Source: Legionella birminghamensis (lineage in GTDB: Bacteria > Pseudomonadota > Gammaproteobacteria > Legionellales > Legionellaceae). From it: DNA of 64,000 bases. The notes beneath the pieces are model-generated. The model was not told the origin of the DNA, did not search any database, and worked only from the letters and a program-made list of their open reading frames with translations. The position numbers and the translations under genes were made by a program. This document shows positions 9,519-28,015 of this stretch, piece after piece (within the stretch, counting starts at the first letter, position 1; every line of letters begins with the position of its first letter). The DNA is taken from contig NZ_UGNW01000001.1 of NCBI RefSeq assembly GCF_900452515.1, positions 1 through 64,000 of the forward strand, given 5' to 3'.

Positions 9519-9580
9519 GCTGGACTGCAAAGCCCAGCGGACAACCAAATGCCGCACTTTACAGCCCAGCCTACATTTTT
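9516..9580 (+). terminator. Inverted repeat with T tract after hflX
   Basis: GTAGGCTGG (9516-9524) pairs with CCAGCCTAC (9566-9574), and the right arm is followed by ATTTTTT. A nested AAGCCCAG lies between them. It begins in the hflX stop codon and fits a rho-independent terminator, though the loop is long. The arms belong to the same AGCCCAGC hairpin family found at 43820 and 61934. Confidence 0.5.
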
Positions 9581-9617
9581 TACAATTCATGGCTTAACAC
9601 AGAATCCTGCGGGTTAT

Positions 9618-10739
9618 ATGCGTGTCCTTCATTTTTACAAAACATACATCACCGATACAAAAGGCGGTGTTGAGCAATTTATATATCAGTTAATCAACAG
9701 TGTAAGTGCCCTAGGGGTGTCCAGTGAGGTATTGGCCCTCAGTGCGGACAAATCAGCAGAGACGGTTCAATTTTCCGGGCATACAGTTCATCGCGCTCCC
9801 CTTGATCTTCAATTGGCATCCACCGGTTTTTCTTTTTCTGCCATACGCCGATTTAGTGAGCTGGCGAAGGATGCAGATGTAATCCATTATCATTTTCCAT
9901 GGCCCTTTATGGATGTGGTGCATTTTGCATCGCGAATAAAAAAGCCGACGGTAGTCACTTATCATTCCGATATAGTAAGGCAAAAGAATTTATTGAAGTT
10001 ATATCAACCCCTGATGCATGCCTTCCTGCGACGGGTGAATCGTATTGTGGCAACTTCGCCCAATTATCTCGCGAGCAGTAAAGTACTAAATCGGTATCAG
10101 AACAAGACCAGTATTGTACCGATTGGATTAGATGAAACAGTGTATCCCCTTCCCAGTGATGAAAGAATGAAGTACTGGCGGCAGCGTTTAGGGGAACGCT
10201 TTTTCCTCTTTGTTGGAATGCTGCGTTATTACAAAGGCTTGCACACCTTACTATCAGCATTGCCTGGGCTTGATTATCCGGTAGTCATTGTCGGAAATGG
10301 TCCAGAAGAGATGGCCTTAAAGCAGCAGGCAGAGGATCTTGGCTTAAAACAGCTTCATTTTGTGGGTTCTGTCAATGAAGAAGACAAAATGGCTTTACTC
10401 AAACTCTCCTATGCATTTGTTTTCCCCTCCCATCTGCGTTCGGAAGCATTCGGGATTTCACTGCTCGAGGCGGCAATGGCCGCCAAACCGTTGATTTCCT
10501 GTGAAATTGGCTCCGGAACCAGTTTCATAAACCAGAATGAGGAGACCGGCCTGGTCATTCCTCCCGAAAATCCCCAGGCATTGAAAAATGCGCTGCAATA
10601 CTTGTGGAATAACCAGCAGTCCGCTGAAATTATGGGCAGAAATGCAAGAAAGCGTTATCTTGACTGTTTTACTGCTGACAAAATGGCAGCGGATTACAGC
10701 ACTATCTATCACCAGGTCGTTAGCGATTCCAGCGTATAA
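9618..10739 (+). CDS. GT4-type glycosyltransferase of surface-glycan synthesis
   Basis: The 373-residue product is a retaining GT-B glycosyltransferase that would transfer an NDP-sugar in the cytoplasm. It begins MRVLHFYKTY, has the acceptor-side motif GGVEQFIYQL, the region FVGMLRYYKGLHTLL at the start of the donor domain, and the donor motif SEAFGISLLEAA (EX7E type, about residue 275). The ATG at 9618 is chosen because family members begin at this strand; an upstream ATG at 9549 would add 23 residues with no family character, from within the hflX terminator region. It is the first gene of the glycan locus, just before the GDP-mannose genes. A mannosyl or rhamnosyl-type substrate is likely but unproven. 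Confidence 0.85.
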   Translation: MRVLHFYKTYITDTKGGVEQFIYQLINSVSALGVSSEVLALSADKSAETVQFSGHTVHRAPLDLQLASTGFSFSAIRRFSELAKDADVIHYHFPWPFMDVVHFASRIKKPTVVTYHSDIVRQKNLLKLYQPLMHAFLRRVNRIVATSPNYLASSKVLNRYQNKTSIVPIGLDETVYPLPSDERMKYWRQRLGERFFLFVGMLRYYKGLHTLLSALPGLDYPVVIVGNGPEEMALKQQAEDLGLKQLHFVGSVNEEDKMALLKLSYAFVFPSHLRSEAFGISLLEAAMAAKPLISCEIGSGTSFINQNEETGLVIPPENPQALKNALQYLWNNQQSAEIMGRNARKRYLDCFTADKMAADYSTIYHQVVSDSSV

Positions 10740-10858: not shown

Positions 10859-12328
10859 ATGCAAATAATACCAACAATTTTATGCGGAGGAGCTGGTTCA
10901 CGTTTATGGCCTGTTTCCCGTGAATTACATCCCAAGCCTTTTATTCAACTTAGCGATGGCCAGACCTTATTGCAAAAGGCATTTCTTCGCGGTGCCTTAA
11001 TTCCGGGCGTCAAGGAAGTAATGACTGTTACCAACCGCGAATTATTCTTTAAGATTCAGGATAATTATCGCGAGGTGAATCAAGCGTCCCTTTATTCATC
11101 TTTCATCCTTGAACCTTTTGGCAGAAATACGACAGCCGCAGTGGCTGCCGCAGCCCTGGCTATCGCCCGGAAATATGGCGAAGAGGCTGTTATGCTGATT
11201 CTGGCTGCTGATCACCTGATTGAAAATCAGGATGCCTTCCAGACGGCTGTGGCCCAAGCCAGTGCTTTGGCTGCTGCTGGGCATCTGGTTACCTTTGGTA
11301 TTGAACCCAGCCATCCAGAAACCGGTTATGGGTATATTGAAGCCAATATTACAGCGCCGATTAACCTGCAGAGCAATAACGCCAAGCCTGAAGGCTATGC
11401 GGTAACCCGTTTTGTAGAAAAACCCTCTCGAGAAAATGCGCAGGCGTTTATTGAATCTGGTCATTACCTGTGGAATTCCGGCATGTTCTGCTTTACTGCT
11501 GGCCGTATCCTGGAAGCGCTGGAAGAATTCTGTCCCGACATTTTAAATGCGACCGCTTCTTGCATCGCTGCTTCAAAACATGAACAAAGCAAAGAGTTCG
11601 AGCAGATCCAGCTCGATTCAGGTTTATTTGCGCAGATACCGGATAATTCCATCGATTATGCTGTGATGGAGCCTGCTTCCCATGCGTCAAGGGTTGCTGT
11701 AGTCCCCTGTAATATTGGCTGGAGTGATATTGGTTCCTGGAGCGCAATCGGTGATTTGTCAATGCCCGATGAGGCCGGTAACCGCGTGGAAGGCCATGCC
11801 CTGATTCATGAAAGCAGCAATTGCTATATCCAAAGCAATGACCGTTTAGTCGGTGCTGTGGGTGTAGATGATTTGATTATCATTGACACGCCTGATGCCC
11901 TGCTGGTCGCTAACAAGCAACGTGCACAGGATGTCAAACACGTTTATGCGGAATTAAAAGCACAGGGTCATGAAGCGCATAAACTGCATCGAACAGTTCA
12001 TCGCCCCTGGGGAACCTTTACTGTTCTCGAAGAAGGCACGAACTTCAAAATCAAGCGGATTGAAGTAAAACCAGGAGCCAGTTTAAGTTTACAAATGCAC
12101 CATCATCGCAGCGAACACTGGATTGTGGTTAGCGGTATGGCAAAAGTGGTTAACGGTGATCAGGAAATGCTTGTAGGTACTAACCAGTCGACGTATATTC
12201 CTGCAGGGCACCGCCATCGCCTCGAAAACCCCGGCGTGTTGAATCTGGTCATGATTGAAGTACAGAGTGGAGAATATCTCGGGGAAGATGATATTATCCG
12301 TTTCGAAGATAATTATGGACGTGTGTAA
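10859..12328 (+). CDS. manC: Bifunctional mannose-1-phosphate guanylyltransferase / mannose-6-phosphate isomerase
   Basis: The 489-residue product combines a nucleotidyltransferase domain ([20 protein letters not shown], in part, residues 9-20 region) with a C-terminal cupin isomerase domain (about 345-480; [15 protein letters not shown]). It makes GDP-mannose from mannose 1-phosphate and, as in the XanB/AlgA class, converts fructose 6-phosphate to mannose 6-phosphate. No separate manA is seen nearby, which fits the bifunctional form. It overlaps manB by one base (TAATG), so the two are translationally coupled. Together with manB, gmd and the aminotransferase it supplies GDP-perosamine. Confidence 0.95.
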
Positions 12329-13713
12329 TGACTGGTTTAACCTGTTTTAAGGCCTATGATATTCGCGGCCAATTGGGTATTGATCTGGATGAAGGCATTG
12401 CTTATCGGATTGGACGGGCGTTTGCCCAATTCCTTTCCGCCAAGCGTCTTGTTGTCGGCGGGGACATCCGCTTATCAACAGAATCTTTGAAAGCAGCGCT
12501 TATCCGTGGGATCAATGATGCCGGCGCTGATGTGATTGATCTGGGCCTGACAGGGACGGAAGAAGTCTATTTTGCGTCTTTCCATCTCGATGTTGATGGC
12601 GGTATTGAAGTAACCGCCAGCCACAATCCGATGAATTATAATGGCATGAAGATGGTTGGACGAGGTGCTTTACCGATTAGTGGGGATAGCGGGCTTCGAG
12701 AAATCCAGCGTCTGGCCGAGCAGAATGAATTTATCACGCCGGTAAAAAAGGGAACCTGCATTAAGCAAAGTATCTTACAGGCATATTGCGATCATCTTCT
12801 TGGATATCTGGATCTGGCCACCATAACCCCTTGCACTTTGGTAGTGAATGCGGGTAATGGCGCAGCGGGTCATGTAATCGACGAGCTGGAAAAACGATTT
12901 AATAAACTTGAAATCCCTGTTCATTTCATCAAAATTAATCATGAACCGGATGGTCATTTTCCAAACGGTATTCCCAATCCCTTATTGCCGGAAAATCGAT
13001 CCTCAACTGCCAATGCAGTGATTCAGCATCAGGCGACTATGGGTATTGCCTGGGATGGTGATTTCGACCGCTGTTTTCTTTTTGATGAAAAAGGGCAGTT
13101 TATTGAGGGTTATTATATCGTAGGATTGTTAGCGGCAACGTTTCTTAATCAGCATCCCGCTGAAAAAATTATTTACGATCCACGCCTGACCTGGAACACC
13201 ATTGATGTGGTCAGCAATGCAGGCGGCCTGGCGATACAAAGTAAAACCGGCCATGCCTTTATCAAAGAAAGAATGCGGCAGGAAAATGCCATTTATGGTG
13301 GTGAGATGAGTGCTCATCACTATTTTCGCGATTTTGCCTATTGTGACAGCGGCATGATTCCCTGGCTGCTTGTTATTGAGTTGTTGTCCAAAACAGGTAA
13401 AACTTTGTCGCAGCTCGTTAAAGAGCGAATGTCTCTCTATCCTTGCAGCGGTGAACTGAATTACAAGGTAACCGATGTTAACCCGGTCCTTGAACGAGTG
13501 TTGAATTATTATTCGAACACTGTTAATACAGACGAGGAAGTTCCTCATATTGACAAAACCGATGGCCTAAGTCTCGAGTTCAGCAAATGGCGCATGAATA
13601 TTCGCGCCTCCAATACTGAACCCCTTTTACGGCTTAACATTGAGTCACGCGGTTGTCATTCATTGGTTAGCGAACGGGTACGTGAAGTCGAGTCATTAAT
13701 TAATGCAGACTAG
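12328..13713 (+). CDS. manB: Phosphomannomutase
   Basis: The 461-residue product interconverts mannose 6-phosphate and mannose 1-phosphate. It has the alpha-D-phosphohexomutase active-site serine loop [14 protein letters not shown] (about 95-108), the metal-binding DGDFDR (about 240) and the C-terminal phosphate-binding RASNTEP (about 427). Length is that of the bacterial ManB/AlgC class. It sits directly between manC (overlapping stop and start) and gmd, completing the route from fructose 6-phosphate to GDP-mannose. Confidence 0.95.
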
Positions 13714-13760
13714 CTCACGTTTGATCAGAAAATTACGAAAAGGTGTTTGAAGGAAATAGC

Positions 13761-14852
13761 ATGCAAAAGAAAGTCGCATTAATTACTGGTATCACTGGAC
13801 AAGATGGAGCTTATCTTGCTGAGTTACTTTTGGCAAAAGGCTATGAGGTTCATGGTATCAAACGCCGCTCTTCTTTATTTAATACGGACCGTATCGACCA
13901 TCTCTATCATGATCCGCACTGCAAGGGCTATGATCTGACCCTGCATCATGGCGATCTGACTGATTCCTCCAGCCTGATTCGTATTGTGCAACAGGTACAA
14001 CCTGATGAGATTTATAATCTCGCAGCCCAAAGTCACGTGGCTGTTTCTTTCGAAGAGCCTGAATACACCGCCAATTCGGATGCGCTTGGTGCATTAAGGC
14101 TGCTGGAAGCGATTCGAATTACGGGTTTAGAGAAAAAAACCCGCTTTTATCAGGCCAGTACCTCAGAGCTTTATGGTTTAGTACAGGAAGTACCGCAGCG
14201 TGAAACGACTCCCTTTTATCCGCGAAGCCCTTATGCAGTGGCGAAGCTGTATGCTTACTGGATTACCGTAAATTACCGCGAAGCCTACGGCATTTATGCC
14301 TGTAATGGCATTTTGTTTAACCACGAGTCGCCTATTCGTGGTGAAACCTTTGTGACCCGTAAAATTACCCGCGCCCTGGCAAGAATCAAATTAGGCTTCC
14401 AGGAACGCCTTTATCTGGGTAATTTAAATGCATTACGTGACTGGGGACATGCCCGCGATTACGTTGAAATGCAATGGCTTATGCTGCAGCAAAACCAGGC
14501 GGAAGACTTCGTTATTGCTACTGGTAAACAGCATTCTGTGCGTGAGTTCGTAGAAATTGCTGCTCGGCAAATTGGTATTGAAATGCAGTGGGAAGGCGAG
14601 AACGAGCAGGAAAAGGGCTACGATGTGAAGACTGGCCGTTGTATTGTAGAAGTCGATCCGCGCTATTTCCGCCCTGCTGAAGTGGAAACATTACTGGGCG
14701 ATGCGGCCAAGGCTAAAGAAAAATTAGGCTGGGAACCCCAGACAAGCTTTGAAGACCTGGTCACTGAAATGATGCGTGAAGATTTGAAGGAAGCGCAGCG
14801 TGATGATTTGATGCGTCAGCATGGCTTTAAGTACAGTAATTTTAATGAATAA
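13761..14852 (+). CDS. gmd: GDP-mannose 4,6-dehydratase
   Basis: The 363-residue product is a short-chain dehydrogenase-type enzyme converting GDP-mannose to GDP-4-keto-6-deoxymannose. It shows the NADP-binding [14 protein letters not shown] near the N-terminus, HHGDLTD, and the catalytic region QASTSELYG with YxxxK as [27 protein letters not shown] is characteristic of Gmd. I chose the ATG at 13761, preceded by AAGGAA; the GTG 18 bases upstream is possible but less well placed. The next gene aminates its product. Confidence 0.95.
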
Positions 14853-14873: not shown

Positions 14874-15959
14874 ATGATTCCAGTCTATCAACCCTATTTC
14901 GGTGGCCGTGAAAAAGAGTATGTCAATCAATGCCTGGATTCTACCTGGATTTCTTCCAAGGGAGAGTTCATCGGCAGATTTGAAAAGGCCTTTGCTGAGT
15001 ACACCGGTTCGCCCTATGCTACTACCGTTTCCAATGGAACGGTCGCCATTCATTTAGCCTTGGAAGCTCTGGGCCTTGGCGAAGGGGATGAGGTTATTGT
15101 TCCCACGCTGACGTATGTTGCTTCAGTGAATACCATTATCCAGACAGGTGCTACTCCAGTCTACGTTGATTCTTTGGAACCCAGTCTGCAAATTGATCCG
15201 GCCGATGTCATACGCAAAATTACACCACGAACCAAAGCGGTGATGGCTGTGCACCTTTACGGCCTTCCCTGCGATATGGATCAGCTGATGGCTATCTGCA
15301 AAGCGCATCAGCTTTATTTGATTGAAGATTGCGCCGAAGCCTTCGGCACTTTCTATAAAGGCCAGCATGTGGGCACTTTTGGCGATGTTGCTACGTTCAG
15401 TTTTTTTGGCAATAAAACCATTACCACTGGTGAGGGGGGAATGGTTCTTTGCAAAACGAAAGCATTGCATGAGCGCGCTTACCATCTGAAAAACCAAGGG
15501 GTGTCTTCCGAACGCGAGTATTGGCATAACATCGTTGCCTATAATTATCGCATGACTAATATTTGTGCCGCGATTGGTTTGGCACAGCTAGAGCAGGCCG
15601 ATACCATCCTTGCTAAAAAGCGTGAGATCGCAGCATGGTATGAGGAAGCATTGTCTGATCTGCCCCTGTATTTCCATAAGGAAACGGAAGGCACCCGCCA
15701 TTCATTCTGGATGTGTTCCATCATTCTTAATGATGCAAAAGAAAGACAAGCGCTGCGTGATTTCCTGAAAGCCAGAGAAATTGAAACCCGACCCTTTTTC
15801 CATCCCTCACACCAGTTGCCGCATTGTGCGGCCGCGGGCGAGTTTCCTGTAGCTGTTTCCTTATCTGAGCGAGGCATTAATTTGCCCAGTTCACCGGTGC
15901 TGGAATATAAGGATGTGGCCTATATTTGCGAAGCTATCCGTGCTTTTTTTAGTAAATAA
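14874..15959 (+). CDS. per: GDP-perosamine synthase-like aminotransferase (DegT/DnrJ family)
   Basis: The 361-residue PLP enzyme of the DegT/DnrJ/EryC1 family has the aldimine lysine in FFGNKTITTGEGG (about 178-190) and the DCAEAFG motif (about 155). Its sequence character and its place directly after gmd point to 4-amination of GDP-4-keto-6-deoxymannose, giving GDP-perosamine. The NeuD-type acyltransferase at 20873 could then N-acylate it. The alternative, a different sugar 4-aminotransferase, is less likely given the gene order. Downstream lies a repeat array, so this may end the first transcript. Confidence 0.88.
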   Translation: MIPVYQPYFGGREKEYVNQCLDSTWISSKGEFIGRFEKAFAEYTGSPYATTVSNGTVAIHLALEALGLGEGDEVIVPTLTYVASVNTIIQTGATPVYVDSLEPSLQIDPADVIRKITPRTKAVMAVHLYGLPCDMDQLMAICKAHQLYLIEDCAEAFGTFYKGQHVGTFGDVATFSFFGNKTITTGEGGMVLCKTKALHERAYHLKNQGVSSEREYWHNIVAYNYRMTNICAAIGLAQLEQADTILAKKREIAAWYEEALSDLPLYFHKETEGTRHSFWMCSIILNDAKERQALRDFLKAREIETRPFFHPSHQLPHCAAAGEFPVAVSLSERGINLPSSPVLEYKDVAYICEAIRAFFSK

Positions 15960-16388: not shown

Positions 16389-16410
16389 AAACCTGGTTAA
16401 AAATTTGCGT

Positions 16411-17193
16411 ATGAACAATTATTTAAAAGGCATTTGGACTTCCCGCTTTTTTTGGTCTCACCTGGCAATGGCGGATTTAAGATCCCGCTGGCGCCGCTCC
16501 GCAATGGGCATTTTCTGGTCAATTATTCAACCGCTGGGAATGACGCTATTGCTGGCTTTAGTGTTCAGCCGCTTGTTTCATGTCAATATCACTTATTACG
16601 CCCCCTATATATTATCTGGATTGATCGTCTGGGAGTTTATTGGTTCTTCATTGACCGGTGGTGCACTTGCTTTTGTCCAGGCAGACGCCTATATCAAGCA
16701 GTGCAGGCATCCACTGGCCATATACACTTTGCGTCTGGTGCTCAGCAATTTGATAGTCCTGGCGCTTGCCAGTACCGTTCTTTGGGTTTGGGCTTTGATA
16801 GTAATGCCCGAAAACTTCGGCTTCAGCTGGATTGCAACGCTGACTGTATTCCCCTTGCTTGGATTGATCATCTGGCCATTGGCGAGTCTCCTGGCTTATG
16901 TGGGTACCCGGTTTCGAGATGTTTCACACGCAATGGGACTCATCCTGCAAGTGGTCTGGTTCATCTCGCCCGTTTATTTTGAAGCAAAAATGTTTCGCAA
17001 TGGCGGTTTGAGCGCCTTAGTGGATTACAATCCCCTATACCATTTGCTGCAGATTATTCGCGCCCCGGTACTGGAGGGGCAGTGGCCTACACTGGATAAT
17101 TATCTGGTATGCCTGGGGGCGGCAGCCGTTTGCACTCTCCTTGCTGTATGGGTTGGAAGCAAGGCGGAGCGTCGCGTTATTTTCTACTTATGA
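16411..17193 (+). CDS. wzm: O-polysaccharide ABC exporter, permease subunit (Wzm type)
   Basis: The 260-residue product is an ABC-2 family permease with about six membrane segments. It has the N-terminal amphipathic region (HLAMADLRSRWRRSAMGIFW) and the conserved late motif NPLYHLLQIIRAP typical of polysaccharide exporters. With the ATPase encoded 30 bases downstream it would carry finished, lipid-linked glycan across the inner membrane. The ATG at 16411 is preferred over a TTG two codons earlier. ABC-dependent export means no Wzx/Wzy pair is expected, and none is seen. Confidence 0.92.
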   Translation: MNNYLKGIWTSRFFWSHLAMADLRSRWRRSAMGIFWSIIQPLGMTLLLALVFSRLFHVNITYYAPYILSGLIVWEFIGSSLTGGALAFVQADAYIKQCRHPLAIYTLRLVLSNLIVLALASTVLWVWALIVMPENFGFSWIATLTVFPLLGLIIWPLASLLAYVGTRFRDVSHAMGLILQVVWFISPVYFEAKMFRNGGLSALVDYNPLYHLLQIIRAPVLEGQWPTLDNYLVCLGAAAVCTLLAVWVGSKAERRVIFYL

Positions 17194-17223
17194 AATAATT
17201 GTGAACCAATAGTTTTGAAATTT

Positions 17224-17973
17224 ATGAATAAAAATTATATTAACTTAGAAAATGTAAACCTGCATTATGCTTCAGTAGCTTATCAGGAGCGTTCGCTCAA
17301 AGCCTTACTAAGCCGCCTGGGGGACAGCAAAAAAAAGAAAAGGGTGACCGATATCCATGCGCTGAAAGACATTACCCTGAATATCAAGGCTGGGGAGCGT
17401 ATTGGATTAATTGGCCATAACGGCGCTGGGAAGAGCACTTTTCTAAAAACAGTTGCGGGTCTCTATCCTATTTCTTCTGGAAAATTGGATGTCAGAGGTG
17501 AAATCAGGTCATTATTTGATTTAAGCCTGGGATTTGAACCGGATGCTACCGGCAGGGAAAATATTCTCTACCGAGGTTTGCTTCTTGGGTTATCCCCAAA
17601 GTTCATGAAGAAAAGAGAGGAAGAAATTGTAGAGTTCGCGGGTCTCGGAGAGTTTATTGATTATCCAATAAAAACCTATTCTGCTGGAATGCAGGTGAGG
17701 CTTGCATTTGCAATATCTACGGCTGTAGGTGGAGACATCTTATTACTAGACGAAGTGATCGGTACTGGTGATGCCAATTTTATGCTAAAAGCAAAGGAAA
17801 GAATCAAAGGACTGATAGAGCAGGCAGAAATATTAGTGCTTGCTTCTCATGACTTTAATGCATTGAGGTCGCTTTGTGAAAGGGGATTAGTGTTCCATCA
17901 CGGTGTTTTAGTTTATGATGGTCCTGTTTCCGCTGCCATTACTCACTATGAGAAACTAAACCAAGTTGCGTAA
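17224..17973 (+). CDS. wzt: O-polysaccharide ABC exporter, ATPase subunit (Wzt type, short form)
   Basis: The 249-residue ATPase has Walker A GHNGAGKST (about 66-74), the family-typical YSAGMQVRLAFAIS signature and Walker B ILLLDEVIGTGD. It ends without the C-terminal carbohydrate-binding domain of Wzt proteins that recognise a capped O-antigen terminus. It therefore belongs to the short class, in which chain termination is not read by the ATPase. An ATG at 17224 is used; an in-frame TTG three codons earlier is also possible. The glycosyltransferase block follows 21 bases downstream. Confidence 0.92.
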   Translation: MNKNYINLENVNLHYASVAYQERSLKALLSRLGDSKKKKRVTDIHALKDITLNIKAGERIGLIGHNGAGKSTFLKTVAGLYPISSGKLDVRGEIRSLFDLSLGFEPDATGRENILYRGLLLGLSPKFMKKREEEIVEFAGLGEFIDYPIKTYSAGMQVRLAFAISTAVGGDILLLDEVIGTGDANFMLKAKERIKGLIEQAEILVLASHDFNALRSLCERGLVFHHGVLVYDGPVSAAITHYEKLNQVA

Positions 17974-17994: not shown

Positions 17995-19239
17995 ATGCAA
18001 GCGTTTCATAATAGTTTTTCTCAATTCAAATCAGACAGCTGTTCTGGGAAGCCGAGTTATTGGCTCAGAAAAAAAAGAAAAATTGCTATAGTGCTGCCTT
18101 TAGCATATGGCGGCGGTAATTTAAAAGGCGCTTGCCTGCTCGCTGAAACCTTACTTAATGGCAGCAGACAATGTAATGAAGAAGCTGAAATTATTATAAC
18201 CTGTCTGAAAGAGCAGAAACTGTATGGGCAGGATTTAATCGAGGAATTGCCGGAAGAAATTAAAATCAGGCAGTATCAGTGGGATTTTATTGATGCATCT
18301 GCTGCTGAAAAGGCAATGTACTACGCAGGCCATACTCAATGGCAGCCCACTGAGTCCCTCTACTCCATTTTTGATGATAAGATGAATTTCTTAAGCGACT
18401 GCGATTTATGGTTAATTATTTCAGATCGAGTCCAGGCTCCCATTTTGCCGCTTAGACCTTATGTCATGATGATTTATAATTATATTGAGCGCTATATACC
18501 CGGGATTAACGCAGATAAACAGGTGCTGATTAGCAATGCCCAAAAAGCAAAAGCTGTTTTAACAACCACTAATCAAACTTATCAGGATGCAATGCAATAT
18601 GGGGGAATTTCCAAAGAAAAGCTCCATAAGTTGCCGATACTCCTCCCTCATTTTAAAATGAAACCGGAAGCATTAGTTGTCGACAGGAATTATTTCTTAT
18701 GGCCAACCAACGAGGGTGCCCATAAAAATAATTTCAATGGGTTTCAAGCATTAAAATACTATTATGAAGAATTGGAGGGATCGCTTGAGTGCCATATCAC
18801 CGGCATCAATTCAGCGCAATTGGCAGAGCAGGCCAGTATTTCCAGTCTGATTGAACAAAGTGACAGTTTAAAATCAAATATTCATTTCTTTTCAAACTTA
18901 AATGAGAAAAAATATCAGGCTAAGCTAGTAAATGCTTCTTTTCTATGGCATCCAACCAAAATTGATAATGGTGCTTTTTCAGTAATCGAAGCGGCTTTGT
19001 ATAATGTTCCATCTTTATCCAGCAGTTATCCAGCAATGCAGGAAATTGATAATGATCTTAAATTACATCTGACCTGGATGGATGCCAATAATCCGAATGA
19101 TATGGGGCGGCAACTGAAATGGATGGAAGCCAATCGAGAGGAGCTCAAGAATAATGTCGAATCTGCAAACGCCATTTCAAACTCTCACTCAGGCAATTTT
19201 GCTGTTAAATATTGGAAGGTAATTCGCGAATGTCTATGA
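17995..19239 (+). CDS. Glycosyltransferase-like protein, module A copy 1
   Basis: The 414-residue product looks like a GT-B glycosyltransferase: an N-terminal Rossmann start (RKIAIVLPLAYGGGN, about residue 28) and a donor-like half with FLWHPTKIDNGAFSVIEAAL (about 317-336). The last third is strikingly similar to the C-terminal half of the product at 21493-23700 (shared NFLSDCDLW/CFLDCDLW, PILPLRPY/PILPIRPY, YYEELEG/YYEELGG, FLWHP, and W.MD near the end). It is the first gene of a two-gene module duplicated at 21493-25307. Its last bases overlap the next gene by 10. Substrate unknown; a perosamine or mannose transfer is plausible from context. Confidence 0.8.
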   Translation: MQAFHNSFSQFKSDSCSGKPSYWLRKKRKIAIVLPLAYGGGNLKGACLLAETLLNGSRQCNEEAEIIITCLKEQKLYGQDLIEELPEEIKIRQYQWDFIDASAAEKAMYYAGHTQWQPTESLYSIFDDKMNFLSDCDLWLIISDRVQAPILPLRPYVMMIYNYIERYIPGINADKQVLISNAQKAKAVLTTTNQTYQDAMQYGGISKEKLHKLPILLPHFKMKPEALVVDRNYFLWPTNEGAHKNNFNGFQALKYYYEELEGSLECHITGINSAQLAEQASISSLIEQSDSLKSNIHFFSNLNEKKYQAKLVNASFLWHPTKIDNGAFSVIEAALYNVPSLSSSYPAMQEIDNDLKLHLTWMDANNPNDMGRQLKWMEANREELKNNVESANAISNSHSGNFAVKYWKVIRECL

Positions 19240-20876
19240 AAAAAATCTATGGGATTTATTTGGCTTACCCGCCGACCATTGATTTGCGCGATCAGGGGTT
19301 AGGGCGCCACCTGGCAGCCTTTTTAAATGGCGCGATTGAAAGCAAAGGTGCCCATTTCATCATTGTTTGCCCAAGCTGGAGCAAGAAAAGCATTCTGGCT
19401 CTAATGAAGGCAGAATCAGTTCCAGAGAGCTCTTTTCAAATTATTGCCCCGGCAAAACCGATTATTAGCCTGCAGTTATTTGATTGGTACCAGCAAATTA
19501 TTTCGCGTCTCAAGCCAAAAAAAGAAAAGACAAAAAAAGTAACTTTTCTTGATCGGTTTAAGAAAACCAACTTTTATTTTAGAAAAAAAATTCTTACCGC
19601 AACCAATATTCTTCAATTCCTTTTATTAGGTGTTCCCGTTTTAATTAGCTTTTTGGTTATCAGTATATTTTCAGCAGTAGATAAAATAGTCAGATTTTTA
19701 AATGAATCATTTTTTAAACAAGGCTACATTAAAAAAAGTTGGTTTTTCAAGCGGATAATCAGACCGATTCTTGGAATCATTCGTAGCCCCAAAGATAGTT
19801 TTACTGTAACTGGCTGGTTTAAGGTAATTGAGCAGCAAGAAACTGATCTAATGCTTAAGCTGATTGAGGGCATGACTGAAGTGAGAGCCTGGTATTCTCC
19901 TACTGCATTCTGGCCCTCTTTCAATCAAATCTCAAGACCGCATCTTATGTGTGTTCCCGATGTTGTCCTCACCGAGTTTCCTATTGGTTTTGCCAATGTT
20001 GGCGGCAACCGCTTTTTAGATACATTTAAAACAATAGAGCACGCAATTGAAGGCGGGACTCATTTCGTTACATACAGTGACCATGTTAAGAAAACGATAT
20101 TAGTTAAACGTTATAAACGAAAGGAAAAACACGTTCGTGTGATTCCCCATGCTGCCAATACCCTCCATCAAATTATTGAACAACAGGCAATGAGCAGTAA
20201 GGAAATTGAAAACGCTTATCAACAGCATTTTTCAAACGCATTGACTAAAAGCTCGCTGCAAGAAAATGGCGGCACCGCGGCAAATGCAGATTTGAAGTTT
20301 ATTTTTTATGCCAGTCAGTTCAGGCCTTCCAAGAATGTAATAACATTGCTCCGTGCTTATCAGTATTTATTGAGGGAACGATTTGTAACCCATAAATTAA
20401 TCCTTACAGGAAAGCCCAAGGTGATGGAGGAGATTGACCAGTTTATTATTGACAACCAGCTTGGTCATGAAGTTTTATTATTGTCGGGCTTATCAGTAGC
20501 GGAACTTGCTGCTTGCTATAAACTAGCCGACTTGGCCGTTAACCCAAGCCTGAGCGAGGGTGGTTGTCCGTTTACGTTTACAGAGGCCTTGTCAGTAGGC
20601 ACCCCTGTGGTCATGGCTGATATTCCCGTCACGACCGAGATTATCAATGATCCTGGCTTGCAGCAGCAGATGTTATTTGATCCCTATAGTTGGAAATCGC
20701 TTGCCGACCGGATTGAGTGGGCTTTGACTAATCGGGACAAATTGTTAAAACAGCAAGTTCATTTCTTCGATAAGCTGGCTCAACGAACCTGGAAGGATGT
20801 AGTGAATGATTACATCAATGAGCTTGACAGGATTTCAGAGTCGGTTAATGTTGAAGCCAGTGGACAAGTTATATGA
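19230..20876 (+). CDS. GT4-type glycosyltransferase with membrane segment, module B copy 1
   Basis: The 548-residue product has an N-terminal domain beginning KKIYGIYLAYPP, a hydrophobic hairpin-like region (about 130-165) that probably anchors it to the inner membrane, and a C-terminal GT1-type donor domain (FIFYASQFRPSKNVITLL, about 362; SEGGCPFTFTEAL, about 450, a Glu-rich donor motif). The start at 19230 is chosen because GGAAGG lies 10 bases upstream and the same overlapping junction (AATGTCTAT) recurs at its paralogue (23691). The gene ends in an ATGA overlap with the acyltransferase. It probably acts with module A copy 1 in building the exported glycan. Confidence 0.82.
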   Translation: MSMKKIYGIYLAYPPTIDLRDQGLGRHLAAFLNGAIESKGAHFIIVCPSWSKKSILALMKAESVPESSFQIIAPAKPIISLQLFDWYQQIISRLKPKKEKTKKVTFLDRFKKTNFYFRKKILTATNILQFLLLGVPVLISFLVISIFSAVDKIVRFLNESFFKQGYIKKSWFFKRIIRPILGIIRSPKDSFTVTGWFKVIEQQETDLMLKLIEGMTEVRAWYSPTAFWPSFNQISRPHLMCVPDVVLTEFPIGFANVGGNRFLDTFKTIEHAIEGGTHFVTYSDHVKKTILVKRYKRKEKHVRVIPHAANTLHQIIEQQAMSSKEIENAYQQHFSNALTKSSLQENGGTAANADLKFIFYASQFRPSKNVITLLRAYQYLLRERFVTHKLILTGKPKVMEEIDQFIIDNQLGHEVLLLSGLSVAELAACYKLADLAVNPSLSEGGCPFTFTEALSVGTPVVMADIPVTTEIINDPGLQQQMLFDPYSWKSLADRIEWALTNRDKLLKQQVHFFDKLAQRTWKDVVNDYINELDRISESVNVEASGQVI

Positions 20877-21496
20877 AGCAATTAGTAATCCTGGGATTCG
20901 GTGGCCACGCACGCAGTGTGGCGGATATTGCTTTATCCAATGATATTGATTCCCTTGTTTTTATTGATGAAAATGCTGGAGAAAACGAGTATTTCCTTCA
21001 TTATCCCGTACTTAAGGTTTATACAGGAATGGTCGATGCCTGTATTCCGGCAGCAGGCGATAACCACCGACGCGAACGGCAATACCATTGGGCTATCAGG
21101 CAGCAGTGGCCGATGAGTAGAGTATTATCGTACTTGGCGAGACAAGGTGTAGGTTCAGTGGTTGGTGCAGGAACTATAGCTGGACACTATTCATTCGTTG
21201 GTCCTATGGCTATTGTGGGAAAGGCTTGTATCATTAACAATGGCGCAATTATTGAGCACGATTGCCATGTGGGTAATTTTTGCCATATTTCGGTCAATGC
21301 GACATTGGCAGGCAAGGTCAGTCTAGGGGATTATGTATTCGTTGGTGCTGGCGCTGTCGTCAAGGATGGTATAACGATTGGAAATAACATTATTATTGGT
21401 GCGGGGGCTACCGTAACCAGAGATTTGGATATAGCAGGGGTTTATACAGGCACACCTGCTCGGCTTCAAAGGAAATTTGCTGAGGATATGGAATGA
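20873..21496 (+). CDS. NeuD/PglD-type sugar acyltransferase (likely perosamine N-acyltransferase)
   Basis: The 207-residue product has an N-terminal nucleotide-sugar-binding Rossmann-like part (LVILGFGGHARSVADIA) and a C-terminal left-handed beta-helix built from hexapeptide repeats (about 95-195; for example VGAGAVVKDGITIGNN). The histidines in INNGAIIEHDCHVG fit the catalytic pattern of PglD, PerB and NeuD. In a locus making GDP-perosamine the likely reaction is acetyl-CoA-dependent N-acetylation of the 4-amino group. It is coupled by ATGA overlaps to the genes on both sides, lying between the two copies of the glycosyltransferase module. Confidence 0.88.
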   Translation: MKQLVILGFGGHARSVADIALSNDIDSLVFIDENAGENEYFLHYPVLKVYTGMVDACIPAAGDNHRRERQYHWAIRQQWPMSRVLSYLARQGVGSVVGAGTIAGHYSFVGPMAIVGKACIINNGAIIEHDCHVGNFCHISVNATLAGKVSLGDYVFVGAGAVVKDGITIGNNIIIGAGATVTRDLDIAGVYTGTPARLQRKFAEDME

Positions 21497-23700
21497 TAAA
21501 GAGATTAATGTGGCTATTAAATCATGGCACTGCCAGAAAATTTGAACTGGCCATAATGAAAAAGCTGGGCGTAGAAGAAATATATTTACCAAAAATATAC
21601 CCTTCCGATCCAAGGTTTCGCAGTGTATCTGTTGATCATTCTGAAGACCAGAATTTAACTATTCCAAAAAAAGAACTGGATATTTTAAATGCGCAGAACT
21701 GGTACATTAATCCAAGTGTTGAAGCCTGGGAAATCGCCAACAAATATTTTCCGGTAATCTTTTTTATTCTGTATGACTGTAATTTACTTAAACTTGTAGC
21801 AAAGCATTACAAGGGTATTGCTGTATGGCGGACTTATGGGCTCGATAAAACCCTCTCATACAGTATGATTATTGAACAGACAAACACTAAACGATATGCC
21901 GAGCTACTTGGCGAAAGATTAGTTTTTGGCCAGGCGTATCCTCATTTGCATACCATTGAACGCCCCTTCCTTGCCGAGCGGCGTGTGGATTTACCGGCTG
22001 GTATGTTTGATTGTGAAATGAATGATGAGTGGATTGGTACCAACAAGAAAATATATTTCGTGTGCCCGGATATTGGATTTAGTGTCTATTATCAACAGAT
22101 TTACCGGGAGTTTGTAGAACAACTCGGTGATTTTCCTCATGCAATCGCAGGCAGCCAACCTGTGTATGTTTCCGATCCCAATATTCTAGGTTTTGTCGCA
22201 AAAGAAGCCCATGAACGCAATATGCGTGAAATGCGGGTGATGTACTATCATAGCTCTGAACCAAACCATATCCACTATCATCCGTTCGAAGCTTTAAAAG
22301 CAGGTATGCCGTTGATTTTTATGGCAGGCGGAATCCTAGATCAGTTCGGCGGACATTCTTTACCAGGACGTTGCGAATCCATTGATGAAGCAAGAAAAAA
22401 AATAAAACGTATCCTTAATGATGATTGGAGCCTCATCGCTGATATACGAAAAAGTCAGGAAGTGTTGCTAAATCCAATGCGGCTGGAGACTTGCTATAAC
22501 GATTGGCTGAAAGGATTCCAGCGGATAGCCCAATTGGTGGAAGAGCATAAGAGTCGCCCTCCTGTCATAAAGAAAAAGAAGTTCCGCATCGCCCTTTTTT
22601 TCAATGATGCAATAAACTATGAACTTCAGCTAATGATTCAGATGCTAAAAGCCGGAGCTAAGCAGGCGGGTACAGAATTGGATTTAATATTCGCGTTTGA
22701 GCAAATACCTGTAATAAGTAAGGAAGAGCTTGCGGAATTCAATTATCGATTATTTAAATGGGTAACACTGGACAGTGAAGCATCATTCAGGGCTTTAAGC
22801 TATGAGGGTTGTCCAAAGCCATTGGTAAATGCCGATTTCTATGTTCCTGATGACGGGATTAACTGTTTTCTGGATTGTGACTTATGGATTTTCCCTGTGG
22901 ACTGTCTACGTTACCCGATCTTACCAATCAGACCCTACATCTTGAATTTACTGAATTTCTCTTCCTCTGCCGAAAAAAATGCCCAGAATCTTTTTGATGA
23001 TCAACTAATTCCTCATTGCCATATTGCTGAAGCAACGTTTACCACCTCCAGTTATCTGTCAGATAGTTTGGTGCGTGTGATTGGCATTCCGGAAAACAAG
23101 GTTGCTCGGTGGGTTGTATGCTCCGAACTTGATGAGATTGCACTGGAAAAAAAACCGGCATTGGATCGCTTCCTCTGGGTTGTTGATCAAAACTGGCAAA
23201 AGAACCTTGATATGGTATTAGATGGACTCAGGATTTATTATGAAGAGCTGGGTGGGCAAACTGACTGTTATGCCCTCGGCTTGATGCCTGAAGATGGAAT
23301 TCTTCTCACTGAGCAACAGCAGCAATGGCTGGATAATGAGAAGAGAATAGTCAGACATAGACGTTTATCTCAGGAAAAATACCAACAGTTACTGCCCACA
23401 TGTAAGTTTTTATGGCATCCCAGCTTAACAGACGGTAATTTATATACTATCCTTGATTGCTCAAGATTAAACATCAATGTTTTGGCGCTTAGGCAATCCG
23501 CACTTGAGTGTATAAATGATCAATTCAAATTAAATATAAAATGGATGGATAATGCGGGTGCGCGGGATTACGCTCATGCACTTAAGCAGATGGAAAGTGG
23601 TGTGGATAAAAGAAGCGCTTCCCTGCAAAAAAGGGAGTTTAATAAAAACATGGATCAATTGAAAAAGCATTACTGGGAACTGATAGAGCAATGTCTATAA
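21493..23700 (+). CDS. Two-domain glycosyltransferase-like protein, module A copy 2 with extra N-terminal domain
   Basis: The 735-residue product is a fusion. Residues about 1-360 form a glycosyltransferase-like region with YHPFEALKAGMPLIFMAGG (about 256-274) and QFGGHSLPGRC. Residues about 365-735 are paralogous to the whole product at 17995-19239 (shared FRIAL start, CDLW, PILPIRPY, YYEELGG, FLWHP, NIKWMD and a terminal QCL). The N-terminal half has no counterpart in copy 1. In the C-terminal half the copy 1 segment VIEAAL reads ILDCSR, so the donor-site glutamate seen there is lost, and that half may be non-catalytic. ATGA overlap with the preceding gene and a 10-base overlap with the next show tight coupling. 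Confidence 0.78.
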   Translation: MIKRLMWLLNHGTARKFELAIMKKLGVEEIYLPKIYPSDPRFRSVSVDHSEDQNLTIPKKELDILNAQNWYINPSVEAWEIANKYFPVIFFILYDCNLLKLVAKHYKGIAVWRTYGLDKTLSYSMIIEQTNTKRYAELLGERLVFGQAYPHLHTIERPFLAERRVDLPAGMFDCEMNDEWIGTNKKIYFVCPDIGFSVYYQQIYREFVEQLGDFPHAIAGSQPVYVSDPNILGFVAKEAHERNMREMRVMYYHSSEPNHIHYHPFEALKAGMPLIFMAGGILDQFGGHSLPGRCESIDEARKKIKRILNDDWSLIADIRKSQEVLLNPMRLETCYNDWLKGFQRIAQLVEEHKSRPPVIKKKKFRIALFFNDAINYELQLMIQMLKAGAKQAGTELDLIFAFEQIPVISKEELAEFNYRLFKWVTLDSEASFRALSYEGCPKPLVNADFYVPDDGINCFLDCDLWIFPVDCLRYPILPIRPYILNLLNFSSSAEKNAQNLFDDQLIPHCHIAEATFTTSSYLSDSLVRVIGIPENKVARWVVCSELDEIALEKKPALDRFLWVVDQNWQKNLDMVLDGLRIYYEELGGQTDCYALGLMPEDGILLTEQQQQWLDNEKRIVRHRRLSQEKYQQLLPTCKFLWHPSLTDGNLYTILDCSRLNINVLALRQSALECINDQFKLNIKWMDNAGARDYAHALKQMESGVDKRSASLQKREFNKNMDQLKKHYWELIEQCL

Positions 23701-25307
23701 AAAAATACGGAATATATTTTTCCCATCCTTCGAGATCTGGTTTATATCAAGATGATGAAACCAATCTACTCGCTTTTTTAAAAATTGCAGCAGTACAGGA
23801 TGAGATTAAGTTTGTAATTGCCTGCCCCAGCTGGGCAAGTGATTCATTAAAAGGGATCCTTCGACATCATTTAATAAATCCGAATGTTTTTGAATTTGTA
23901 AGCCCCTCCAGAGAACCATTGATTTGTACAGTAAATGATAGTTTGCAGCATCTGCTTAATAGATCGAAGAGTGGGCTTTGGCCACGTATAAAGGCAAAAA
24001 CGAAAGAAGCCCTATTGGCTGCTTTTAATGCCTTTATGCTGAGGTTGATATCATCGAGAAGCTGGGTCCATTTTCTGTTCATGGGATTGATAGCATTAGC
24101 CGGATGCCCATTCCTGTTTGCCGGCATTTTCCTGTTAAAAGTCAAGCGAGTGGTTTCACGACGGGTTCAACGTGTAAATAACTGGTTGAGAGGAAAATTC
24201 TTCGCCTGGTGTTCTAACCTGGACAAATCAATTTATCCTGTAATTATTGCAGCAGAAACACGGCGTATTAACAGGATTATCAATCAGCGCAAGGATATTG
24301 AATTATGGCTTATTCCCTCAACCAGCTGGGTTGACGTTAGCCGTATCAAAAAAGAGTGCATAGTACAGGTCATTGAGGAGTTTTATAAATACTCCCCCAT
24401 ACAATTTGCCCGGGATTCACTTTCGTCAATCGATCAACTGCGTCACAGCGGAAAACTAATTGCCAGTGCCAAGCATTTTCTTATTCATAATAAGGCTATG
24501 ATTGAGGTAATTAACCGGTTTTCCAGAAAAGATAAGAAAATTAGTCTAATTCCCCCTGCATTGTCCAATTTAAAACACTTAATCGATATTAGCGGTTTTG
24601 CAGATAATGAGACGGCAAGTAAAACGCTGGCACGAAATTTTATAAGAGTAATATCCTCTCGCAATCTGTTTGATTATTGTCCGATTCATCATTTTTCAAA
24701 TGAACTGGATTATTTCTTTTATACCAGTGGATCCAGGAAGCGTGGGAACCTGATTAATGTACTTAAAGCGTATAAGTTAATTCTGGGACAAGTGCCGCTA
24801 ACTACCAAGCTTATTATTAATCAATGTAAAAGCATTCACCAGGATGCCCTCGACTTCATCAAAAATAACGGCTTGTATCAGCATGTCATGTGGTTCGACA
24901 ATTTGTCCGAACAGGAGTTGGCGGCTTGTTATAAATTGTCCCTTTTTGTTATTGATTCTTCATTTGAATTTGATGATCCTCATACCGTATTATTACAATC
25001 ATTAGCCTTTAACAAGCCTGTGATTCTTTCAAAAACAATCGAGTCAGAAATGATGTTCGCTAACACAACTGTCTCTTCACACTCTTTATTCGATCCTTAT
25101 GATTACAAGGAAATTGCTGAGAAAATACGCTGGCTTCTGGGGAATACAGAAAGCCTGCTTTCAATGCAAAAAGAGGCGGCTAAAAATTTTGAGCAGAGGA
25201 CTGTAGAGCATTTTTTTCGCGATTTCTTACAGCTATTAAATAAACAGGAACCCGTATCAAAAAAGAAAGAAACTGTATCGGAGACGGTGGAATGTGTCGT
25301 TGATTAA
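23691..25307 (+). CDS. Divergent GT4-like protein with membrane segment, module B copy 2
   Basis: The 538-residue product is a paralogue of the product at 19230-20876. It shares the N-terminal K-K-YGIY start, the CPSW motif, a central hydrophobic segment (about 122-150) and the donor-domain start YTSGSRKRGNLINVL. The donor motif has decayed: where copy 1 reads SEGGCPFTFTEAL, this copy has FEFDDPHTVLLQSL, replacing the second glutamate by glutamine. It may be a partner subunit rather than an active transferase. The overlapping start (AATGTCTAT) matches the junction of copy 1, which supports duplication of the gene pair. Confidence 0.75.
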   Translation: MSIKKYGIYFSHPSRSGLYQDDETNLLAFLKIAAVQDEIKFVIACPSWASDSLKGILRHHLINPNVFEFVSPSREPLICTVNDSLQHLLNRSKSGLWPRIKAKTKEALLAAFNAFMLRLISSRSWVHFLFMGLIALAGCPFLFAGIFLLKVKRVVSRRVQRVNNWLRGKFFAWCSNLDKSIYPVIIAAETRRINRIINQRKDIELWLIPSTSWVDVSRIKKECIVQVIEEFYKYSPIQFARDSLSSIDQLRHSGKLIASAKHFLIHNKAMIEVINRFSRKDKKISLIPPALSNLKHLIDISGFADNETASKTLARNFIRVISSRNLFDYCPIHHFSNELDYFFYTSGSRKRGNLINVLKAYKLILGQVPLTTKLIINQCKSIHQDALDFIKNNGLYQHVMWFDNLSEQELAACYKLSLFVIDSSFEFDDPHTVLLQSLAFNKPVILSKTIESEMMFANTTVSSHSLFDPYDYKEIAEKIRWLLGNTESLLSMQKEAAKNFEQRTVEHFFRDFLQLLNKQEPVSKKKETVSETVECVVD

Positions 25308-25392: not shown

Positions 25393-26922
25393 TTGAAAGC
25401 CTTAGTGTCTACTGTTAATAATATATTGCTTGTTGATCTTGAAACACGGCAAATAAATATAGTGGAGTCAGGCCGCCGTGAATACTATGGTATCTCATGG
25501 TGGGAGAACAATGATCAGCTAGTGTTAAGTCACTCCGGTGTAGAAAACGATCGCATGCTGGATCTTGAAAGCTATATTCACTCAGAGAAAGGCTATTTAT
25601 CGTATAATAACAAGCAGTCGGCATGCTTCCTCTCGCAGCCGCATCAAATTCTGTGTGCACCTGATAATATAATCATTGCTACCAATACAGGTAGAAATTG
25701 TATCAGTTTTTACAATGCAGAAAATGGCTATTATAAAGATCTTCGGATTAATGATATTTACTGGGACAGATTAGGCCCGGATAACGCCTGCGGCGAGCAT
25801 TTCAATTCCATTTTCCTAAAGAGAAACCGCTTGTATGTGCTGGCGCATCGATTCAAACGCGGTTCGCAGGTGCTGGTGTTCTCCTACCCTGAAGGAGAAT
25901 TAATCGATAAATACGAGGCTAATCATCGAAATGGAATGCACAATATTTGGGTGGATAATGAGGACAACCTCTTTGCCTGCCATTCCGAAGCAGGTGAGCT
26001 GGTGGACATCAAGGCTGATGAAACAGTTTGGGCGAGCGGGGCATCGCATTACTCCCGCGGCCTGGCTGTAAGTTCAGACTATATCCTCATTGGTGACAGT
26101 GAGATTGTAGCCCGCGTGCATCGAAAAAACCTGTTAAGCGAATTGTGGGTCATTGATCGTCATTCCTTAAAAACCCTGGATTATATCCCCCTGGGCAATT
26201 ACGGTGCCGTACATGAAGTCCGTTTGCTTGACGCGGTGGACGAAGCACACAATAGCAGCTTATTTAGCGGTTTGGACCTACTTGAGGCGCAAATCAAGTC
26301 GAATGAAGAGCAGAAAGAAATGCAGCGGCAAAAGAAATTAAGCGATAGCCAGCATTGGCAAGCGAACCGCCACTTATTAAATCAATTCAACTGTGTCTTA
26401 AATGGCTGGCAGGTGGTTGATGGGGGGTGGATAAAGCCGAAAAACGCGGGCATGACCGTTGGATTTTTCAAGAATGCAAGCAAAGGCGCTTACAATGTTT
26501 CTTTCGAATACTCTTTTGATCAGGAAGCGGATGGATCCCATTTAAGTTTTATCTTTAATTACTGCGGGCCTGATGACAGCAATATGTCCGCATTGCTCCT
26601 GCTGTATAACAAATCCCTTAAACAGGCGAGCCTGGGATACTGGGTTAATACGAACGACGCTTGGCAGAATACAGAATTGCTGCTTGCTGACCTGCCGATA
26701 ACTGGACAGTTGTCAATCAAGATCAGTGAAGAGCAGTTTACTGTTTCAGCAAAAGACCTCCCGGCGGTGAGTAAAGCAACTGGCTGGACACAAGGCCATA
26801 TTGGCTTTAGAGCCTATGGATCACAATTCAAAAATGTAGCACTTACCCTGGGTGAAGGAAGCGGTAAATCCGAGTTACGAAAAAAAGTTAAAACAATTTA
26901 TGAGAAATTAGGCATAAGCTAA
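25393..26922 (+). CDS. Unrecognised beta-propeller-like protein with C-terminal jelly-roll-like domain
   Basis: The 509-residue product has no assigned function. Residues about 1-290 look like a beta-propeller (repeated W/Y-rich strands such as GMHNIWVDNEDNLFACH and QVLVFSYPEGELIDKY). A charged coiled-coil-like linker follows (about 300-325). The C-terminal 180 residues are beta-rich, like a LamG or glucanase-fold carbohydrate-binding domain (KGAYNVSFEYSFDQ, HIGFRAYGSQFKNV). It has no signal peptide, so it would act in the cytoplasm or at the inner face of the membrane. The start is a TTG at 25393 with GAAGG 10 bases upstream; the nearest ATG is out of frame. As the last gene of the locus, it may bind or measure the glycan. 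Confidence 0.7.
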   Translation: MKALVSTVNNILLVDLETRQINIVESGRREYYGISWWENNDQLVLSHSGVENDRMLDLESYIHSEKGYLSYNNKQSACFLSQPHQILCAPDNIIIATNTGRNCISFYNAENGYYKDLRINDIYWDRLGPDNACGEHFNSIFLKRNRLYVLAHRFKRGSQVLVFSYPEGELIDKYEANHRNGMHNIWVDNEDNLFACHSEAGELVDIKADETVWASGASHYSRGLAVSSDYILIGDSEIVARVHRKNLLSELWVIDRHSLKTLDYIPLGNYGAVHEVRLLDAVDEAHNSSLFSGLDLLEAQIKSNEEQKEMQRQKKLSDSQHWQANRHLLNQFNCVLNGWQVVDGGWIKPKNAGMTVGFFKNASKGAYNVSFEYSFDQEADGSHLSFIFNYCGPDDSNMSALLLLYNKSLKQASLGYWVNTNDAWQNTELLLADLPITGQLSIKISEEQFTVSAKDLPAVSKATGWTQGHIGFRAYGSQFKNVALTLGEGSGKSELRKKVKTIYEKLGIS

Positions 26923-27741: not shown

Positions 27742-27934
27742 TTTTTTCTTTCCTTTTTTTAATCCGCTGGCTTAGCGTATCGATTGTCTTACTCCCTGTG
27801 TTGACAAAGAGGTCTGGTATGATAGCGTGAATAAGACAGGCGAAGCCCGCAAAAATCAATTTAAAACCCAAGCATTGAGCAAACAGAAAATGCTCGGTAT
27901 AAGATTCATCAATTTCTTTAAGATGTTTGCTCAT
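27728..27934 (-). CDS. Small conserved membrane-associated protein, DUF6356-like
   Basis: The 68-residue product has one hydrophobic segment (about 18-42) and the pattern HAIIPDLFVNTGSKTI followed by a basic tail, which resembles small proteins grouped as DUF6356. Function unknown. It overlaps the start of cysQ by 14 bases on the same strand, and its stop lies inside the cysQ coding sequence. It faces the PAPS synthase gene across 81 bases. Confidence 0.65.
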   Translation of the reverse strand: MSKHLKEIDESYTEHFLFAQCLGFKLIFAGFACLIHAIIPDLFVNTGSKTIDTLSQRIKKRKEKNVSC

Positions 27935-28015
27935 ATTAAATCCCTAATGTTAATAACAAGTTCTCTAGTATATAACTTTGAATCCAAGGATAAAAATTTC
28001 ATTGTAATTGATTGA

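Follow-up and report, generated by a model that had tools for sequence, protein, structure and literature searches.

Does a locus with two pairs of glycosyltransferase genes hold two sets of active centres, or a single set spread over both pairs? The question is raised by a run of five genes in Legionella birminghamensis, within a stretch of 64,000 nucleotides that we call the window (contig NZ_UGNW01000001.1, positions 1 to 64,000). We name the five genes A1, B1, NeuD, A2, and B2, and divide A2 into an AN half and an AC half (Table 1). From its sequence, the locus seems to have a single active centre each for AN, AC, and B, shared out between the two A-B pairs, with a pseudo-AC and a pseudo-B in addition. 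With a probability of about one half, two complementary polymerase complexes make an N-acetylperosamine O-polysaccharide here, the dead domains serving as scaffold or anchor.

Domains and motif residues of the two A-B pairs

A first-pass annotation of this DNA had proposed that A1 is a paralogue of the second half of A2, and B1 of B2. Pairwise alignment bears this out: A1 and the C-terminal half of A2 share 26% identity over 375 amino acids (E 6e-39), and B1 and B2 share 24% over 543 amino acids (E 2e-44). Their Smith-Waterman scores are 353 and 405, with maxima of 56 and 53 in 100 shuffles. Other glycosyltransferase pairs of the cluster (A1-B1, A1-B2, and A1 or B2 with GT9549, an upstream gene product) score 57-62, with shuffle maxima only slightly lower (48-59); the score of 102 between the two halves of A2 is inflated by 20 residues included in both pieces. 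The likeness is thus far beyond that of any two GT-B proteins. As a query against the window genome, B2 finds itself and B1 and nothing else at E <= 0.001, and B1 has one additional weak partial match (30% over 168 residues). The five genes do overlap end to end (by 10, 4, 4, and 10 bases), and AATGTCTAT is present at both A-B junctions.

The same annotation took the pairs for equivalent duplicated modules acting on successive residues. We reject this, since A1 has no AN domain and the C-terminal half of A2 and B2 lack most motif residues, features that had been missed. A1 matches our AC profile and has no AN profile match, and A1 of Legionella quinlivanii likewise has no AN; the AN, AC, and B profiles were made from seven single-module proteins, which in itself accounts for part of the lower scores of degenerate copies. 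Against the Pfam model Glycos_transf_1 (cut-off 26.4 bits), B1 has an E-value of 4.9e-24, B2 reaches 35.9 bits, and A1 falls slightly below the cut-off at 25.6 bits. In neither the window nor L. quinlivanii does any Pfam model reach its cut-off on the A2 AN domain.

At sites invariant in 32 core alignment rows, the A2 AN domains of both species are complete (29/29), and B1 is complete in the window (64/64) and nearly so in L. quinlivanii (63/64). The A2 AC domain has 24 of 36 core sites in the window and 27 of 36 in L. quinlivanii, and B2 has 24 and 28 of 64. Five distant single-module rows are also low in such sites (27-30 of 36 for AC, 41-53 of 64 for B), which makes the motif residues the decisive point. 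Of 58 B rows, 56 share the R and K of FRPnKN and both residues of the E..E pair; window B2 has only the R of these four sites and L. quinlivanii B2 only the second E, and B2 lacks most of the motif residues in which the 56 other B proteins compared all agree. B1 has the C-terminal domain of glycosyltransferase family 4 (GT4) and the R/K and E..E sites of retaining GT4 enzymes, with 8 residues between the two E, where the textbook spacing is 7. B2 has the fold and the Pfam match and lacks these R/K and E..E sites as a set.

The motifs of the AC family (GG, SDR, TN..HK, and DNG...E) are likewise degenerate in A2. Single letters alone are left of them in L. quinlivanii. In SDR the window A2-AC retains the D, in HK the K, and in DNG...E the first D, the last E being replaced by D; with a K and two acidic residues left, it is the weaker case for a dead centre. 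Module 1 without AN and module 2 with degenerate AC and B domains suggest that the locus has one set of active centres, as its single-module relatives have.

Degenerate domains may still be doing something. A2-AC and B2 are predicted to fold as GT-B/GT4 proteins: AlphaFold2 gives a mean predicted local distance difference test score (pLDDT) of 88.4 and a predicted template-modelling score (pTM) of 0.60 for A2, and 81.0 and 0.73 for B2. A2 residues 361-735 match GT4-type structures by VIA, and B2 matches such structures by Foldseek. Identity between the window and L. quinlivanii is 63% for A2 AN, 28% for A2 AC, 45% for A1, 55% for B1, and 30% for B2. In A2-AC and B2, identity is highest at codon position 2 and lowest at position 3, which indicates protein-level constraint and disfavours pseudogene decay. 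The branches of B2 and A2-AC are long, as they would be if these domains were transient, roleless remnants of an acquisition or duplication. That they have no role appears quite improbable, given open frames and position-2 constraint between two species just 30% identical in B2, good fold confidence, and a retained hydrophobic segment.

It is also conceivable that the second module was neofunctionalised, A2-AC and B2 being active with unusual catalytic residues and a new donor or acceptor specificity, so that the polymer carries extra linkages or side residues. The retained folds and constraint, the K and the pair of acidic residues left in the motifs of the window A2-AC, and the persistence of the second module with a functional-looking AN all fit this idea. 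We consider it unlikely, as both species have lost the glycine loops of B2 and A2-AC, together with the first E of B2, and at the lost sites their residues mostly differ from each other; a new activity common to both would be expected to have fixed the same new residues.

The hydrophobic segment lies in an insert of the B protein. A hydrophobic 19-mer occurs in the insert of all 58 B rows, B2 included (Kyte-Doolittle mean 1.66-3.68; 0.89-1.71 outside the insert), which suggests that B may be a membrane-bound subunit. A re-entrant membrane helix was considered and dropped as too weak: an aligned proline is present in 46 of 58 rows and a Ser-Pro inside the hydrophobic run in 19 of 58.

Loss of AC is seen beyond Legionella. 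Among 56 A proteins with an adjacent B, we count 41 with AC motifs, seven without the donor half (two Rhizobiales and five Planctomycetota), and eight of full length without the motif patterns (both Legionella A2 proteins, Pseudomonas subflava, and five Paenibacillus), classes that depend on two chosen motif patterns and a chosen length limit. In an aligned sample, half-deleted AC domains retain most of the first Rossmann half, and the two Rhizobiales proteins also retain the extreme C-terminus (..ECL). Because dead or half-deleted AC domains are kept in 13 single-module systems as well, AC is suggested to have a structural role towards B.

The A-B pair across genomes and the origin of the second module

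Scanning genome contigs yielded 68 loci. Counts of AN proteins and junctions draw on these and on further loci and exclude seven duplicate records or partial loci (L015, L016, L051, L052, L053, L060, and L061); L085 and L124, with no closed AN frame, stand outside the 73 AN-bearing proteins, and the junction count (57) also omits L104, whose listed B frame begins far upstream. The usual A protein has two glycosyltransferase domains, AN+AC. A B gene lies directly downstream of 56 of the 73 AN-bearing proteins, usually in a perosamine/Wzm-Wzt cluster, and A-B can thus be regarded as a real gene pair, as the first-pass annotation had supposed. One further protein, from Pelolinea (L122), joins AN with B, and the other 16 are AN-only, multi-domain in other ways, or at a contig end (L073). 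In Pelolinea, a separate AC gene lies just upstream of the 938 amino acid AN-B fusion (L122:9971-14050), the only fusion seen.

An in-frame B start codon lies inside the end of A at 55 of 57 junctions, and 30 of the 57 A proteins end in ..CL. Overlapping A-B junctions are therefore family-wide, and AATGTCTAT, although conserved at both junctions as claimed, is no sign of recent duplication; we rejected it as such even though the exact ATGTCTA occurs at just 5 of 57 junctions (twice in the window, and in L091, L082, and L096). The first-pass annotation had pointed to NeuD between the modules; in relatives NeuD usually follows A-B and sometimes precedes it, so this part of the layout is not diagnostic.

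Plasmid searches at a coverage of at least 80% gave 8 records with full-length B relatives (43-45%) from Bradyrhizobium, an E. coli plasmid, and a Citrobacter plasmid. The Bradyrhizobium and E. coli plasmid records examined have A proteins of 761 and 778 amino acids with B directly after. The E. coli locus (L014) is a galF-flanked perosamine-type O-antigen cluster, and its A-B stretch occurs in 4 of 5426 E. coli genomes; in two of them it is plasmid-borne and in two chromosomal, at 78% identity. Beyond the window genome, 1 of 369 genomes in a class sample (G169) and 3 of 398 in a phylum sample (G547, G548, and G822) match at E <= 1e-30. G547 and G822 have one full A and one B each; G169 and G548 have AN inside a protein of 822 or 830 amino acids. 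The family is sparse in these wider samples, and a viral contig scan gave no relative.

AN also occurs in other settings. Another Legionellaceae genome has AN fused to DUF7024 (L050:10656-12287) beside a homologue of window open reading frame (ORF) 34988. In L112 (8774-12715), L116 (8774-12739), L117, and L125-L127, AN lies within proteins of 1195-1402 amino acids, with additional transferase domains on both sides of it in L112 and L116; these are probable multi-module polymerases of Chloroflexota and Planctomycetota. One Pseudomonas genome has its B gene in two consecutive frames (L076:12241-13889).

Two modules are rare. In a family-level sample of 143 genomes, B matches at E <= 1e-30 occur in 7 (one, G092, a short fragment), and only the window genome and L. 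quinlivanii (G006), members of one genus-level group, have two. Among the 68 loci, with up to 10 kb examined on each side, L. quinlivanii (L091) alone has two modules; its gene order is that of the window, plus an Acyl_transf_3 gene between NeuD and A2. In the accessible parts of the open-licence literature searched, we found no description of the two-module layout, no matching report of inactive transferase domains, and nothing on the locus under Legionella with perosamine or L. quinlivanii with lipopolysaccharide.

A simple local duplication, as had been proposed, is not established, and neither is a clean acquisition of the second module, since tree tests conflict. The trees were built without the seven duplicate or partial loci, without L073, which has no B within reach, and without L076, whose B is in two pieces; the AN tree additionally excludes 15 AN-only or multi-domain rows. 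B1 clusters with the single-module Legionellaceae L086 and L089 (support 100/97). Grouping of A2 AN with the AN of these two is rejected (p 2e-5), and A2 AN is placed weakly beside Pseudomonas gingeri relatives (93/72). One clade of B1s and B2s is rejected (p 0.007); neither a grouping of B2s and the P. gingeri group (p 0.10) nor one clade of A1s and A2-ACs (p 0.395) is rejected. These tests are soft, given long branches and groups named after the trees were seen. Residues 2-12 of A1 are similar to the linker between AN and AC in full A proteins, a likeness equalled in 5 of 1000 shuffles, as expected if A1 lost an AN domain.

Surrounding cluster and the sugar

Genes for ManC, ManB, Gmd, Per, Wzm, and Wzt all lie upstream of A1 (Table 1). 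The set contains, by sequence similarity, the three enzymes of the N-acetylperosamine pathway (Gmd, GDP-perosamine synthase, and perosamine N-acetyltransferase), and a Wzm/Wzt pair accompanied by transferase genes, as in ABC transporter-dependent O-polysaccharide systems. The Gmd, Per, and NeuD/PerB matches point to N-acetyl- or N-acyl-perosamine as the very probable sugar, in keeping with the perosamine-type polymer named by the first-pass annotation, and the polymer is very probably exported via Wzm/Wzt. NeuD resembles perosamine N-acetyltransferase 4ea7 (E 6e-20). The best NCBIfam match of Per is a LegC-type aminotransferase model, under its cut-off. ManB is 62% identical to CpsG of the E. 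coli plasmid locus. GT9549, which has homologues in many single-module loci, is possibly an adaptor or first transferase.

Table 1. Features of the perosamine cluster in the window.
Feature	Positions	Strand	Description
GT9549	9549..10739	+	GT4 glycosyltransferase; Pfam Glycos_transf_1 E 7.5e-37
ManC	10859..12328	+	GDP-mannose pyrophosphorylase/isomerase; TIGR01479 582.4 bits (cut-off 372.95)
ManB/CpsG	12328..13713	+	Phosphomannomutase; NF011943 702.4 bits (under cut-off 801)
Gmd	13743..14852	+	GDP-mannose 4,6-dehydratase; TIGR01472 593.7 bits (cut-off 415)
Per	14874..15959	+	GDP-perosamine synthase; closest in the PDB is perosamine synthetase 3bn1 (E 2.9e-100)
Wzm	16405..17193	+	Wzm-type ABC exporter permease; Pfam ABC2_membrane E 4.8e-9
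Wzt	17215..17973	+	Wzt-type ABC exporter ATPase, 252 amino acids; Pfam ABC_tran E 6.6e-21
A1	17995..19239	+	AC-only glycosyltransferase, 414 amino acids, no AN domain; GG, SDR, TN..HK, and DNG...E present
B1	19230..20876	+	GT4 glycosyltransferase with hydrophobic helical insert, 548 amino acids; start ATG 19230; every motif residue present
NeuD	20873..21496	+	NeuD/PerB-type sugar N-acyltransferase; TIGR03570 169.2 bits (cut-off 160.8); best PDB match 4ea7
A2	21493..23700	+	AN domain and pseudo-AC domain
A2 AN domain	21493..22587	+	Residues 1-365; glycosyltransferase-like, apparently intact
A2 pseudo-AC domain	22588..23700	+	Residues 366-735; GT-B fold predicted, most motif residues gone
B2 (pseudo-B)	23691..25307	+	538 amino acids; glycine loop, K, and both E sites gone; R and hydrophobic insert present

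Downstream, positions 25393-26922 encode a 509 amino acid protein with a weak DUF4915 match (E 0.012). Homologues stand beside Wzm in L068, L072, and L075 and also occur in the L094 cluster, and this may be a recurring accessory gene of perosamine loci. The adjoining positions 26971-29755 encode CysQ (TIGR01331 above cut-off) and a protein that we take, from its sequence, to resemble a sulfate adenylyltransferase/APS kinase fusion, which might hint at sulfate metabolism or sulfation. As regards a Wzx/Wzy flippase-polymerase, three membrane-protein-like ORFs follow (30087, 31687, and 34988); ORF 30087, the one scanned, has no Pfam match up to E 0.1.

A probable polymerase family and its place among known systems

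We propose that the locus would make an N-acylperosamine O-polysaccharide exported by Wzm/Wzt. The polymerase of the family would be a three-centre complex of A (AN and AC) with B, a membrane-associated GT4 enzyme, and where there is one module its three centres would take turns on a lipid-linked chain, much as WbdA modules do (PMC11231755). In the window, A1 and B1 would provide the AC and B activities and A2 and B2 the AN activity, with the chain passing between A2-B2 and A1-B1 complexes. The pseudo-AC domain and B2 would be kept because AN requires AC-like and B-like partners for its folding and docking and for access to the lipid-linked acceptor at the membrane. More tentatively, and at rather less than even odds, the division of the active set between two complementary heteromers would make the dead glycosyltransferase domains an obligatory scaffold, membrane anchor, or hand-over surface, and dead AC domains across the family would be docking platforms for B.

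The two modules might instead make separate polymers, module 1 (AC and B) and module 2 (AN with pseudo partners) each building its own perosamine chain. There is precedent in Citrobacter youngae and C. gillenii O9, where an alpha1-2 homopolymer occurs alongside an alpha1-2/alpha1-3 perosamine chain (PMC6562859). We find this improbable: the window has one overlapping gene run behind one exporter pair, and its intact AN and B lie in different modules, whereas 54 single-module pairs join AN with a motif-bearing B.

Several observations weigh against two complementary complexes with dead scaffold domains. First, if three of six domains are lost, one intact copy of each kind remains by chance in 8 of 20 arrangements, and complementarity alone is thus not significant. 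Second, distant single-module AC domains have 27-30 of 36 core sites, close to the 24 and 27 of the A2 AC domains, so that the case for AC rests on its motif sites. Of these, the window A2-AC retains the K of HK and a D at both ends of DNG...E, a D at the E position is also found in single-module L097 and L122, and motif loss is not proof of inactivity. Third, the rest of some B proteins reaches a Kyte-Doolittle mean of 1.5-1.7, near that of the weakest insert. Fourth, the AN-B fusion is known from a single metagenome-assembled genome and is absent from the other 297 genomes sampled in its class. Finally, B2 is not placed with B1 in the tree test, and the modules may not share a recent origin.

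The closest known systems are the single-module A-B-NeuD perosamine loci of E. coli pCP53-92k, Bradyrhizobium plasmids, Pseudomonas species, and others, which have the same kind of gene set (ManC-(ManB)-Gmd-Per-Wzm-Wzt-A-B-NeuD) and homologous A and B. They differ in having one A (mostly AN+AC) and one B, whose R/K and E..E are never lost in the rows compared; no second module was seen in DNA up to 10 kb on each side. The ABC-transporter O-polysaccharide polymerases of Klebsiella and E. coli (WbdA/WbdD and others) are alike in spreading several transferase modules over single- or multi-module proteins in a membrane-scaffolded complex (PMC11231755). As differences, that paper names a coiled-coil terminator protein, the parts of it consulted mention no dead transferase module, and the words 'inactive' and 'catalytically' do not appear in the main text. 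B1 matches plasmid wbdA over 191 amino acids only (26.7%). In streptococcal GtfA-GtfB, which glycosylates protein, an inactive transferase-like partner serves an active transferase. The likeness to the window would lie in this inactive partner; the degenerate domains of the window, unlike it, would sit in a polysaccharide polymerase, and on both subunits.

The rules by which polymerase modules are shared among proteins in ABC-dependent glycan assembly have been called unclear (PMC11231755). The locus and its relatives form a natural series: a full AN+AC protein with B, an AC half deleted, an AC without motifs, a separate AC with an AN-B fusion, and a set spread over two modules. They make it testable whether dead transferase domains are structural parts of a polymerase, and they outline how a probable perosamine polymerase family is built, with members in E. 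coli, Pseudomonas, Bradyrhizobium, Legionella, and several other phyla.
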